Assembly (NCBI RefSeq): GCF_000275825.1
Contig: NZ_JH719942.1
Span: 1,490,575-1,554,574 of the forward strand
Length of the DNA stretch: 64,000 nucleotides
Direction: 5' to 3'
Origin: Saprospira grandis DSM 2844
Lineage (GTDB): Bacteria; Bacteroidota; Bacteroidia; Chitinophagales; Saprospiraceae
How positions within the stretch are numbered: the stretch's first letter is position 1; each line of letters opens with the position of its first letter. Both the position numbers and the translations under genes were made by a program. Under the pieces are notes generated by a model, which saw only the letters and a program-made list of their open reading frames with translations, did no database searches and was not told the DNA's origin. Positions 31,328 to 41,115 of this stretch are shown here, in pieces.

Positions 31328-32857
31328 ATGCTTAGTCGATACGAACTTCAGTTGGCCGAACTCCTGGCCCAAAAGAGCCTTAAAAAACTAGATGCCAGCC
31401 GAAAAGGCTTGCAAGAGCTGCCCAGAGAGATTGGGCGTTCTAAGGGCATGAAACAGCTCAATATAGAAGACAACCGCTTGAAAGACCTTCCTGACAGCCT
31501 TGCTAATTTGGGGCAATTGGAGTGGTTAGACATTTCGGACAATCGTCTATCGCCCTTACCCAAGGTGCTATTTCAGCTTCGGAAACTGAATTGGTTGGAC
31601 CTATCGAACAATGGCTTGAGCGAGTTGGGGGAAGAATTGGCGGCTTGGGAAGAGCTCATGCGTTTGGATCTAAAAAACAATCAATTGCAAGAACTGCCTA
31701 ATAACTTTGGGCAACTCAAGGCCCTGCGCAAACTGCTATTGGAGCGCAACCAATTATCGGCCTTGCCGGCTAGTTTTGGGCAATTGCAGCAACTGCAGCA
31801 GCTTGATTTATCGGAAAATGCCTTCACTCAACTGCCAGAAGAAATTGGGCAGCTCAAGGCCCTCAAGCAGCTCAGCATTAGTGCCAACCCCATGCCTCAG
31901 TTAGCTAAAGTATTGGGCCAGCTCTCCAATTTGGAAGAGCTACAGGCCGAAGGCTTGGGCCTAGAAGAAGTTCCTGAGGAAATTGGGCAACTCAATAACT
32001 TGCAGAGCCTATTTTTGGGCTACAATCGCTTAAAAAGCTTAGCCGCCAACTTGGGCAGTTGTTCGGCTTTGGAGCAGCTTGATTTGGGGAACAACCGCTT
32101 AGAAAAGCTGCCCCTGAACCTGGCCCGTTGTCAGCAGCTTAAAGTCTTGAACTTAGAAGACAACCCCTTGGGAGAACTGCCCTTATTTTTGCAGGAAATT
32201 CAGGCCCTAGAGGAATTGGATATGAGCAACTGTAATTTGGTCAATTTGGGGGCAGGTTTAAGCTTGCCCGCCCTACATTGGTTAGACCTATCGGCTAATC
32301 AGCTGCGGGATTTGCCTAGTAACTTTGGGCAATTGACGGCCTTGAGTTGGTTAGACCTTAGAGACAACCAACTGCAAAAATGGCCCAAGGCCTTGGAAGA
32401 GCTCAGCCAGATTCGGCAGCTTCTTTTGGCGGGGAACTTCCTTCGTCAGATTAACCTCAGTGAGCTAGATTGGCCAGAACTGGAGGAATTGGACCTTAGT
32501 AAAAATGAATTGACCGAATTATCGGGGCAATGGGATAAGCTGCCTCAATTGCGCCAACTCAATCTAGAAAAGAATCAATTGGCCCAATTGCCAGAAGACT
32601 GGCAGCCCTTGAGTAATTTGGAAGAACTGGATCTATCAGACAATCAGCTAGATAGCTTGCCCCAGAGCTTGGGAAAATTGGATCAGATTCAGTGGCTAGA
32701 CCTTAGAAACAACCAGTTTACTGAGTTTCCTCAGGCCCTGCTGCCTTTAGTGGGCCAGTTGCAGGCCCTTTACTTGAGCGAAAACAACTGGAGTGAGTCG
32801 GCCTTGGCCCTTTGGAAAACTCATTTTGAGGAAGTCATTGTAGACCTAGAGCTATAG
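31328..32857 (+). CDS. Leucine-rich-repeat protein
   Basis: Protein of 509 residues made almost entirely of about 20 leucine-rich repeats of 22-23 residues (LxxLxLxxNxLxxLPxxLGxL), from about residue 18 to the end. There is no signal peptide, membrane helix or attached GTPase or kinase domain. LRR solenoids bind proteins; the partner is unknown. The repeats resemble those of bacterial Roco and disease-resistance-like proteins, but no extra domain is present. It follows the DUF4240 gene by 11 bp. Confidence 0.9.
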   Translation: MLSRYELQLAELLAQKSLKKLDASRKGLQELPREIGRSKGMKQLNIEDNRLKDLPDSLANLGQLEWLDISDNRLSPLPKVLFQLRKLNWLDLSNNGLSELGEELAAWEELMRLDLKNNQLQELPNNFGQLKALRKLLLERNQLSALPASFGQLQQLQQLDLSENAFTQLPEEIGQLKALKQLSISANPMPQLAKVLGQLSNLEELQAEGLGLEEVPEEIGQLNNLQSLFLGYNRLKSLAANLGSCSALEQLDLGNNRLEKLPLNLARCQQLKVLNLEDNPLGELPLFLQEIQALEELDMSNCNLVNLGAGLSLPALHWLDLSANQLRDLPSNFGQLTALSWLDLRDNQLQKWPKALEELSQIRQLLLAGNFLRQINLSELDWPELEELDLSKNELTELSGQWDKLPQLRQLNLEKNQLAQLPEDWQPLSNLEELDLSDNQLDSLPQSLGKLDQIQWLDLRNNQFTEFPQALLPLVGQLQALYLSENNWSESALALWKTHFEEVIVDLEL

Positions 32858-32917
32858 GCCTTTTGCCTAATTTGGCCCTTTAGGCCTTTCACTAGTAAAA
32901 AAAGGATGCCCTTGCCC

Positions 32918-32925
32918 TATCTTTG
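32918..32925 (+). promoter_or_regulatory. Promoter element of the candidate small RNA
   Basis: TATCTTTG, an exact TAnnTTTG match, lies 60 bp after the LRR stop codon and just before a structured stretch. No clear -33 motif is seen. Confidence 0.5.
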
Positions 32926-32929
32926 TTAT

Positions 32930-33034
32930 GCAATCGGGAGGGAACACCTCCTTAAATTGCACTTCAATTAAGTTTGGGGTAAATCATGGGGATTACAGAG
33001 CAGCAGCCTTGGGGAAGGTTGCTGCTCATTTTTT
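32930..33034 (+). ncRNA. Candidate structured small RNA
   Basis: About 105 nt between the LRR gene and the converging methyltransferase gene. Successive stems: GGAGG-GAACA-CCTCC (32937-32951), AATTG-CACTT-CAATT (32955-32969), GTAAATC-ATGGG-GATTAC (32979-32996) and a terminator stem. A promoter motif lies at the expected distance upstream. A 44-codon frame from 32928 exists but runs through the terminator and looks accidental. It matches no RNA family I can name; it lacks the conserved SRP apical loop. Confidence 0.5.
32998..33034 (+). terminator. Intrinsic terminator of the candidate small RNA
   Basis: GAGCAGCAGCCTT pairs with AAGGTTGCTGCTC (13 bp, one G-U pair) around a GGGG loop and is followed by ATTTTTT. 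The T-tract direction shows it serves forward transcription and not the reverse-strand methyltransferase gene. Confidence 0.92.
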
Positions 33035-33038
33035 ATGC

Positions 33039-34238
33039 CTATACCAAAGCAACCCCTAGGCGTTTGGCCAATTCTTGTTCCTTGATGCCAAATTCGGCAG
33101 CTAATGTCTGAAGCTCGACCAAAATGCGGTCCTGCTCCTCCCTTTCTATTCCCTGCGGGCGTTTTTGGGCCGCCAACATCAGGTTTTTGGCGGTATGCTG
33201 GCCCGAAATAAACTCAAAGGCCTTAGCCTGATAGCCCTGATGCTCTAATAATAAGGCCCGGATGCTATCGGTTAATAACTCGGCTTGCCGCTCCTGAAAA
33301 ATGCCCTGTTTGAGCGGAAAGCGCCATTGTGGAGCCACCGCCTGAATCTGTTGGCGAACCTCTTTATGGCAACAGGGTGCCACCACTAATAGCTCGGCCC
33401 CTTGCAAAAGACCCTTATGCAGCGCATAATCTGTAGCGAGATTACAAGCATGCAAGGCAATTAAAACATCTATTTTTAGCTCCTTGGGAAAATCGGCAAT
33501 ATCCATAGCCATAAAGCGGATATTTTGCTGCCAGCCTAGTGTATGGCTCAACTGCTGGCAAAACTCCACTAGTTCGGGCCGAAGCTCTACCCCCAACAGC
33601 TCCACGTCTTGGCCTTGCTGCATCAAAAAATCGACTAAGGCAAAACTGAGGTAGCCCTTACCGCTGCCCATATCAACAATGCGCAAGCTTTCTTTTTGGC
33701 CCAGTAGCTTAGTTTGTTCCAATTGGGCCTGCATGATTTCTACATACTTATTGATCTGCCGAAACTTATCTTGCTGCTTGTCCTTCACCCGCCCCTTAGC
33801 ATCCGTAATGCCCAAGGCCTGCAAAAAAGGCCGATCGGCAGTAATGAGATATTGCTTTTTGCGGTTGTGGCTGAGCGGAGCGGGAGCGGCCTCTTTGGCC
33901 ATTTTTTTCCGTTGCAAACGGGCCTTTCCTCTGCGGTTAAAGAGCAGTTGAACCTCTTCAGTGGTCGTTTTCATATAGGCGGCTTTATAATCTTTTAGCC
34001 AAGCTTGCAACTTCGGCTCTAGTTCTGCCAATAGATAATTTTGCACCTTATCTTGCCTGGCGTAACGGTAGGTGGCTTGCAAGGCCAAACCTTTTTTTAG
34101 GGCAATCGGGCGGCCCAAAATCTTCTGGGCGCAGCCTTCTGGCCCCTTACTTAAGCTCAGTTTGATTAGGTTTTTTTGGGCCAAAGCCGCTGAGAGCAAT
34201 TGTATAAATTGCTGGATGGCAGTATCTTTTTCAGACAT
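33039..34238 (-). CDS. SAM-dependent methyltransferase (Methyltransf_32-like)
   Basis: Protein of 399 residues from the ATG at 34238 (MSEKDTAIQQF). I prefer this over an in-frame ATG at 34301, which would add a hydrophobic leader ill suited to a cytoplasmic enzyme. An N-terminal domain of about 150 residues rich in Lys/Arg precedes the Rossmann domain, with SAM motif I as VDMGSGKGYLSFALVDF and later LLGVELRPELVEF and DVLIALHACNLATDYAL. A conserved APCCHKEVRQQI follows. The layout resembles rRNA/protein methyltransferases of the Methyltransf_32 group; the substrate is unknown. Confidence 0.83.
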   Translation of the reverse strand: MSEKDTAIQQFIQLLSAALAQKNLIKLSLSKGPEGCAQKILGRPIALKKGLALQATYRYARQDKVQNYLLAELEPKLQAWLKDYKAAYMKTTTEEVQLLFNRRGKARLQRKKMAKEAAPAPLSHNRKKQYLITADRPFLQALGITDAKGRVKDKQQDKFRQINKYVEIMQAQLEQTKLLGQKESLRIVDMGSGKGYLSFALVDFLMQQGQDVELLGVELRPELVEFCQQLSHTLGWQQNIRFMAMDIADFPKELKIDVLIALHACNLATDYALHKGLLQGAELLVVAPCCHKEVRQQIQAVAPQWRFPLKQGIFQERQAELLTDSIRALLLEHQGYQAKAFEFISGQHTAKNLMLAAQKRPQGIEREEQDRILVELQTLAAEFGIKEQELAKRLGVALV

Positions 34239-34341
34239 AAATTTTCCTCTGATGCAAAAACTAAAGAATAACAGACTACCCAATTTGAGCAGCGGCCTCA
34301 AAATACTAATTTTATTAGTGGTTTTTTGACCCTTTTGTTTT

Positions 34342-40830: not shown

Positions 40831-41115
40831 TCGGGGGACTGTTCGGGGTTTTGTGTATCCGAATAAAATTTGGGCCGTTAGCTTGTTAGGATTTGGCCAA
40901 TAGTCGCCTAGGGACAAGCCCCTAGGCTAATCAAATGGAGTCAGCCCTAAAGGGCCTCAAAGGTTGATATACAGGGACTGGCTAAGTAGTTCTTGCAGAG
41001 AAGGTCCTTATCCAAAGGCCCTCTTTAGAGGGCTGTCTAAAAAAGCTAGCCTAGGGGCTTGTCCCTAGGCAGCAAAAAGGAGAAACACAAAATTTTAAAC
41101 AGTCTCCTATTCGGA
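40831..41115. repeat. Nested inverted-repeat element (MITE-like)
   Basis: Two perfect 24-bp inverted repeats lie at 40906-40929 and 41047-41070, 117 bp apart. Each arm is itself a hairpin (GCCTAGGG/CCCTAGGC). Inside are further hairpins such as CCCTCT-TT-AGAGGG. Outside them an imperfect inverted pair is visible: GGGACTGTTCGGGGTTTTGT at 40834 against the reverse complement of 41086-41107. No transposase frame is present, so if mobile it would depend on enzymes encoded elsewhere. Confidence 0.65.

Follow-up and report, generated by a model that had tools for sequence, protein, structure and literature searches.

The window analysed here, a 64,000-nucleotide stretch of the Saprospira grandis DSM 2844 genome, holds a short intergenic element between the gene for a leucine-rich-repeat (LRR) protein and a converging gene on the opposite strand. 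The features of the locus are as follows:

31328-32857, plus strand: upstream neighbour, LRR protein of 509 aa (matches to LRR-containing families, all below cut-offs)
32865-32885, plus strand: upstream box GCCTAATTTGGCCCTTTAGGC, an inverted repeat with an 11-nt spacer and a proposed regulator site (spacing common to the copies)
32918-32925, plus strand: -7 promoter box TATCTTTG (TAnnTTTG)
32930-33034, plus strand: proposed small RNA of about 105 nt, 5' end predicted to within a few nt (sequence, fold and comparison of copies)
32930-32960, plus strand: 5' hairpin P1, pairing 32930-32934 with 32956-32960 and 32936-32941 with 32947-32952 (fold and paralogue pairing)
32961-32980, plus strand: small hairpin P2, ACUUCAA/UUGGGGU (fold; the only change is a one-sided C-G/U-G)
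32973-32994, plus strand: invariant core TTTGGGGTAAATCATGGGGATT (28 Saprospira instances, C/A at one position)
32998-33027, plus strand: terminator hairpin of 13 bp with loop UUGGGGAA (loop common to the copies)
33029-33034, plus strand: terminator T-tract, T6
33039-34301, minus strand: converging neighbour, methyltransferase-like protein of 420 aa (weak methyltransferase matches below cut-offs)

On the plus strand, 60 nt separate the end of the LRR gene from the -7 box, and about 72 nt with small hairpins lie between the box and the terminator. The original prediction, made from the sequence of this DNA, had described a 13-bp terminator stem with a T-tract ending at 33034, and both were found as described, with 13 pairs between 32998-33010 and 33015-33027. 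It had also argued that the direction of the T-tract excludes service to the converging gene; the direction is as claimed, and the minus-strand gene ends at 33039.

The 111-nt fold has a predicted energy of -45.7 kcal/mol (z -6.7) that was equalled by none of 200 shuffles, and with the terminator removed the fold still reached z -3.5, equalled by one of 200. Seven other copies of the element, described below, gave z values from -3.6 to -7.4. The predicted fold consists of the composite hairpin P1, the small hairpin P2, in which the first GGGG is partly sequestered, and a weak hairpin in the core. Three short hairpins had been proposed ahead of the terminator, and while the stretch is indeed folded, the individual stems fared unequally. 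The GGAGG/CCTCC stem is real and is nested in the longer composite hairpin, with GCAAU/AUUGC outside it. GTAAATC/GATTAC does appear as a hairpin in the fold, but a weak one of 4 bp. The AATTG/CAATT stem was not supported, as it competes with the outer stem and its AATTG half is absent from paralogues other than the orthologues of the window copy. A scan of the window against Rfam gave no family at gathering score, and an ARAGORN search of the window found no tRNA or tmRNA; there was no qualifying match to SRP RNA, 6S RNA, tmRNA or tRNA in the window by these two methods, in agreement with the earlier remark that SRP and 6S landmarks are missing.

The promoter motif proposed at 32918 was confirmed in that TATCTTTG fits TAnnTTTG, which the accessible part of PMC7366714 gives as the Bacteroidota -7 consensus, and an exact TAnnTTTG is present in 24 of 26 aligned copies. 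No clear -33 box was seen when the copies were inspected by eye, and most of them carry the upstream box about 52 nt away instead. CCTA lies exactly 52 nt 5' of the -7 box in the window copy and 51-53 nt ahead of TAnnTTTG in 20 of the 26 aligned copies, 18 of which have exactly 52. Over 464 kb of the same genome, CCTA-to-box distances form no peak, and a distance of exactly 52 is found at the window copy alone.

A DNA search of the genome that holds the window (G000) located the element at the window and at five further places, six full copies in all. The covariance model R1, built on core and terminator from 12 rows, found six full copies each in G000, G001 and G005, nine in G002, one in G004 (a 90% complete draft) and none in G003 (63% complete), for a total of 28 places in five of the six Saprospira genomes. 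One partial relative is present in each of four near-complete Saprospira genomes, and S. grandis Lewin has six copies and one partial relative. Promoter box, hairpin, core and terminator recur as a unit at the six places in G000 and at the 28 overall, which supports the original proposal of an independent small-RNA gene whose transcription is predicted from such comparison. The comparison also goes beyond that proposal in revealing a family of several copies per genome, to which RNAs of other genera are probably related.

When 40 genomes (G000 and 39 relatives) were searched at the DNA level, all matches with E<0.001 fell within Saprospira, and the best match elsewhere had E 0.009. Among named genomes, the core pattern was found in six stretches of Lewin, one Saprospira draft and one Xenorhabdus contig, the last of which is about what we estimate chance would yield. 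The 119-nt element had no match in named phage and plasmid records, and the core pattern had none in viral contigs. In three other genomes, alignment with the window copy extends through the entire intergenic region, at 90, 98 and 99% identity; the orthologue in G001, that of S. grandis Lewin, is 99% identical, and the G002 copy has flanks like those of the window copy. In the ORF lists read, the copy in G004 and the five in G000 outside the window have mixed and mutually unrelated neighbours. A riboswitch or attenuator would be expected to precede consistent downstream genes on the same strand. The copies stand beside unrelated genes and a converging gene follows the window copy, and cis control by the element is therefore unlikely.

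Two loci show the element in other arrangements. L043 (G002:C1:2942143-2942893) consists of four tandem copies about 205 bp apart, each with its own promoter box and terminator. L112 (G000:C2:2843518-2843552), the partial seventh member in G000, has the upstream box 52 nt ahead of TAAATTTG and a CUUGGGGGAG terminator loop, with a different middle and without the core; perhaps it is a second small RNA under the same regulator as the family.

Apart from the one C/A position, the core UUUGGGGUAAAU(C/A)AUGGGGAUU, also written TTTGGGGTAAAT(C/A)ATGGGGATT, is identical in the 28 Saprospira instances, which were retrieved by a search that allowed two mismatches. At up to three mismatches it occurs in G000 at the six known places only. 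The terminator loop UUGGGG(A/G)A is unchanged across the copies and, among 432 terminator-like hairpins in 464 kb of G000, belongs to the window copy only. Core and loop together provide three UGGGG motifs per RNA.

Stem conservation was measured on subsets of the 28 copies, 26 of which were aligned (G001:1305041 and G005:1257912 were left out). Alignment A1 holds 23 distinct copies; A2 holds 12 of 15 prepared, three long-linker copies having been dropped; and A3 holds 12 of 23, with the window-type, type II and long-linker copies dropped because their P1 was not structurally alignable. In the terminator stem (12 rows), 96.2% of cells are paired against 77.7% after shuffling, and covariation is 0.58 against 0.20, a value reached by none of 500 shuffles. 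Seven of the 13 pairs changed on both sides with pairing kept, which is no excess over the 5.1 of shuffled rows (32 of 500 as high), and the number of pair types shows no excess either (385 of 500 as high). In P1 of the paralogues (12 rows, window type absent), three of seven pairs changed on both sides with pairing kept, where 167 of 500 shuffles were as high for both-sided changes and 500 of 500 for pair types. The four orthologues of the window copy have no both-sided change in P1. The covarying cells represent few independent evolutionary events, mostly between two subfamilies.

Relatives outside the genus were sought by running R1 over 150 and then 398 Saprospiraceae genomes. At E 0.003, 14 of the 398 had matches, five of them Saprospira and nine others; reading of the sequences left G166 and G356 (genus g63) as clear relatives and G257 as a possible one. 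G166 was matched at E 3.8e-7, and G045 (g41) was matched at E 0.003 in the 150-genome search. In G166, G356 and G045, stretches roughly 300 nt long open with CATCTTTG or TATATTTG, carry a pair of UUCAUGGGAUUA-like motifs and close with a terminator whose loop includes GGGG; the putative RNAs of about 300 nt in another genus are built from modules around AUAUGUUCAUGGGAUUAUAA. Weak matches and other candidates at L076, L087, L088, L090-L092, L094, L095, L116, L118-L120 and L122-L124 looked on reading like unrelated terminators or coding sequence; the reading of weak R1 matches took in none of L093 and L096-L111. Used as a DNA query, the G166 stretch matched 31 of 398 genomes from 10 genera, some of these matches being coding coincidences. 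The g51 matches L190, L191 and L199 coincide with the start of a gene, presumably exbD-like, L198 is coding in appearance, and L194 lay outside the reading.

We use the name module RNA (GUUCAUGGGAUUAUAA) for the class defined here by the motif GATATGTTCATGGGATTATAA. At up to two mismatches, 238 of 298 Saprospiraceae genomes, representing 96 of 112 genera, carry the motif, with at least one match of the reversed control among the matches listed. In a Bacteroidota sample of 296 genomes it was present in four of six Saprospiraceae and one of 290 others, the latter at two mismatches. By this definition the window's genus falls outside the class, with the motif found within two mismatches in 0 of 6 Saprospira genomes, five of which have the short form. 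Tandem copies of the motif are frequent, up to a maximum of seven at about 163-nt spacing in G283, where L250 (G283:C397:19098-20102) is one array of seven near-identical modules. A perfect stem of at least 8 bp follows within 75 nt 3' of the motif in 59 of 74 distinct instances, compared with 72 of 370 shuffled sequences that keep base composition only; ahead of the motif, such stems show little enrichment (25 of 74 against 79 of 370). This 74-instance set includes IMG/VR loci, L215 and L216 among them, and its 100% columns within the motif are a product of the search pattern and uninformative. At 18 of 45 loci the first motif has a TAnnTTTG-like box 50-220 nt on its 5' side, compared with 97 of 900 random positions, and by this measure the remaining 27 are without one. 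Relatives also show indels of 1-2 nt in the core; set A6 comprises seven relatives, and L177 was missed by the pattern.

Seven IMG/VR contigs have an exact 18-mer match. L211, L212, L213 and L217 clearly, and L214 possibly, have the GTTCATGGGATTATAA motif followed by a hairpin, while L215 and L216 are coding in appearance. The IMG/VR matches suggest spread or use of the module by phages of Saprospiraceae. When 20 loci with relatives or candidates were scanned against Rfam, no family matched the RNA convincingly; a tRNA lies elsewhere in L088, and the best match below gathering score was Thr_leader (E 0.005) in L242, outside the motif region.

G257 contains an exact Saprospira-like core and, twice, the family-wide motif, and is a possible intermediate between the two. 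The core match in this other genus, at L121/L165 (G257:C117:8351-8372, TTTGAGGTAAATCATGGGAATT), is without a clear terminator. The pattern TTTGRGGTAAATNATGGGRATT at up to two mismatches was found in 35 of 398 genomes, five of them Saprospira, and of the 30 others only G257 is exact. The reversed pattern gave at least 10 matches among the matches listed, and most of the non-Saprospira matches are probably chance, with an excess left over.

A reciprocal model (R3), trained on g63 and g41 without Saprospira, gave the window element the top rank over 495 kb of Saprospira sequence; the remaining copies in G000 came 3rd, 4th, 5th, 6th and 9th, and the G004 copy 13th. The window element scored 35.9 bits and a plain terminator came second at 34.8 bits, and therefore the terminator carries much of the R3 score. 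With the core alone, compared over 432 terminator upstream regions, the window copy ranked first for three g63 queries (31 against 25 for the next, 31 against 21 and 23 against 22), shared first rank for g60 and was 12th for g95. Over all 60-nt windows it was 4th, 33rd and 42nd of 37108 with the three queries tried. Judged from these sequence scores, common descent of the Saprospira RNA and the module RNA is likely, and the Saprospira family is probably a short, single-module branch of a Saprospiraceae-wide repeated-module RNA. In the wider picture towards which we lean slightly, most Saprospiraceae have an uncatalogued class of repeated-module RNA, in which each module is an AUAUGUUCAUGGGAUUAUAA motif with a variable hairpin after it; the RNA would act in trans, either as a sponge with several sites or as a regulator with several seeds, and would also be carried by phage-like contigs. 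In Saprospira, six to nine dispersed single-module genes, the window element among them, would have taken the place of the array.

Our main reading, to which we assign a probability of roughly 0.7, is that the element is a small-RNA gene in a family of paralogous trans-acting RNAs, whose transcription, regulator and partners are proposed from comparison. The multicopy unit, the fixed core, the pairing-preserving changes in the stems and the common promoter layout support a trans-acting RNA. A regulator would bind the upstream box, RNA polymerase would start after TAnnTTTG, and transcription would stop at the conserved terminator. The RNA of about 105 nt is predicted to fold into P1, P2 and the terminator hairpin, leaving the core UUUGGGGUAAAUCAUGGGGAUU and the loop UUGGGGAA exposed with three UGGGG motifs. 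Core and loop may then bind partners in trans, and the multicopy form could give a fast, dose-dependent output.

Three other explanations do without such an RNA. The element might be a dispersed repeat, MITE or REP-like, that carries a promoter-like box and a terminator by chance; it is multicopy with one tandem array, and the genome is rich in intergenic repeats. We regard this as improbable given that alignment of the window copy with its orthologues spans the full intergenic region, with like flanks in G002, that stem pairing is kept through changes while core and loop are fixed, and that no terminal inverted repeat was visible by eye in the copies read. The original prediction had mentioned read-through from the LRR gene as an alternative. 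The position of that gene, which ends so close to the -7 box on the same strand, and the capacity of the terminator to halt read-through would suit a 3' UTR or terminator without its own transcript, but the promoter-hairpin-core-terminator unit stands at five other places where the ORF lists read show no LRR gene, which makes this explanation very improbable. A small protein or leader peptide is hardly credible. The window copy does have an ATG and a 43-codon frame running through the core, but among the 26 aligned copies this ATG frame is shared only with two near-identical orthologues, the G002 orthologue is frameshifted, and some other copies have at most a TTG start with 8-49 codons. No start codon or frame is common to the subfamilies, and the core indels in relatives also speak against translation.

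How a trans-acting RNA of this kind would work is a more evenly divided question. The simplest reading is that it offers three UGGGG motifs, and the tandem modules of the relatives favour multi-site binding, whether through mRNA seeds or a protein. Base-pairing with mRNAs, with an RRM protein possibly helping, appears to be the most likely mode, at a little under even odds. G000 has one RRM_1 match (G000:C2:3121937-3122146), and Hfq (PF17209) had no match in G000 in a search that was positive in 5 of 14 control genomes. The next most likely mode, which we hold more tentatively, is titration, in which an RNA-binding protein would recognise the UGGGG/UCAUGGGAUUA motifs and be sequestered in the manner of CsrB. 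The three motifs per RNA, their frequent repetition in other genera in arrays of up to seven, the excess of stems 3' of the motif and the single RRM protein of the genome would all fit titration. Against it, the sense motif is not enriched in leaders (294-gene sample), stems ahead of the motif are barely enriched, and the conserved core has a greater length than protein motifs usually do.

No target was identified by the searches made. Antisense action on a single long target was rejected, as the complement of the core at up to three mismatches matches only the six copies in G000. Of the 7-mer complements tested near 294 starts, none but CCCCAAA had more than five sites. CCCCAAA, the complement of UUUGGGG, is enriched 5' of starts in G000: in the G000:C2 samples, 34 of 294 genes have it no more than 60 nt from the start, with a strong strand bias; per 10,000 7-mers, it occurs 23 times in -40..0, compared with 1 on the opposite strand and 3.1 in coding sequence. 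A larger comparison gave 35 of 295 genes in G000 and 10 of 139 in G002, with none among the 27 of G004, the 141 of G099 and the 23 of G166. The sites are mostly edges of intergenic repeats and are absent from the small G004 sample despite its identical core, and we rejected seed pairing through CCCCAAA as other than a weak lead. Pairing to rRNA was likewise set aside: with E. coli rRNA as the target, the best matches of the Saprospira core were 10 bp in 23S (2 of 60 shuffles equal) and 8 bp in 5S (4 of 60), values drawn from three queries by three targets and not relied on, and the family motif showed nothing unusual, with at least 19 of 60 shuffles equal in 23S and 16S and 8 of 60 in 5S.

Other repeats were observed in the same genome. 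The G000:C2 samples (L133-L152) and the window contain abundant GC-rich intergenic repeats ending in GGAGGCCCCAAAA just 5' of starts. Positions 40906-41070 of the window hold a 165-bp element with perfect 24-nt inverted ends (GCCTAGGGACAAGCCCCTAGGCTA). Several more copies of these ends occur in the 2.6-2.8 Mb sample of the genome, and the element has the appearance of a non-autonomous mobile repeat or of a further structured family.

To our knowledge, most studies of regulation by small RNAs in Bacteroidota concern Bacteroides, the genus treated in the papers found here. An RNA motif specific to the family and present in most of the sampled Saprospiraceae genomes offers a concrete handle on such control, the copies and partial relative of Lewin make the regulon and the RNA partner directly testable, and the question arises of RRM proteins in the role of Hfq in Saprospiraceae. 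A full-text literature search, with most subscription journals outside its scope, returned no paper on Saprospira or Saprospiraceae small RNAs of this kind, on the letters of the motif or on BTnc049. Membership in BTnc049 (RF04179), a Bacteroides small RNA, was rejected, the scores being 33.4 bits in the window and 34.7 and 30.7 in two other copies compared with a gathering score of 81.9; the match spans the whole length of the element in the window but does not rest on the invariant core, and five of seven other loci scanned had no match at E 3.

Sponge RNAs of the CsrB/RsmZ type carry a repeated motif with hairpins and sequester a protein whose canonical motif, in the case of CsrA, is ANGGA. 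The wider Saprospiraceae family resembles them in having a repeated motif with hairpins, several per RNA, although the motif here is not the canonical ANGGA. Qrr small RNAs require Hfq and sigma-54. Like the Qrr of Vibrio, which are named in the accessible part of PMC11697453, the Saprospira family has several paralogues and one conserved core, and it differs from them in that G000 has no Hfq match. The closest parallel is FopS, for which the accessible parts of PMC11697453 and PMC7366714 describe multicopy small RNAs (14 in B. thetaiotaomicron) that share a conserved core and have a terminator and a sigma-ABfr promoter. As described in the accessible part of PMC11697453, this Bacteroidota family is conserved within Bacteroidaceae, has a single-stranded 5' seed, represses mRNAs near their start codons, is bound by the RRM protein RbpB and has its sequence also in a phage; FopS/GibS are characterised by repression of susC-like mRNA near the start codon and by RbpB antagonism. 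The Saprospira family shares with FopS/GibS the multicopy paralogues, the TAnnTTTG promoter, the intrinsic terminator and the phylum. Unlike FopS, it has another core and another upstream box, and its relatives have up to seven tandem modules; no Rfam family, presumably including a FopS model in release 15, reached gathering score in the window. As far as tested, the Saprospira family is an analogue, and not a relative, of the FopS of Bacteroides.
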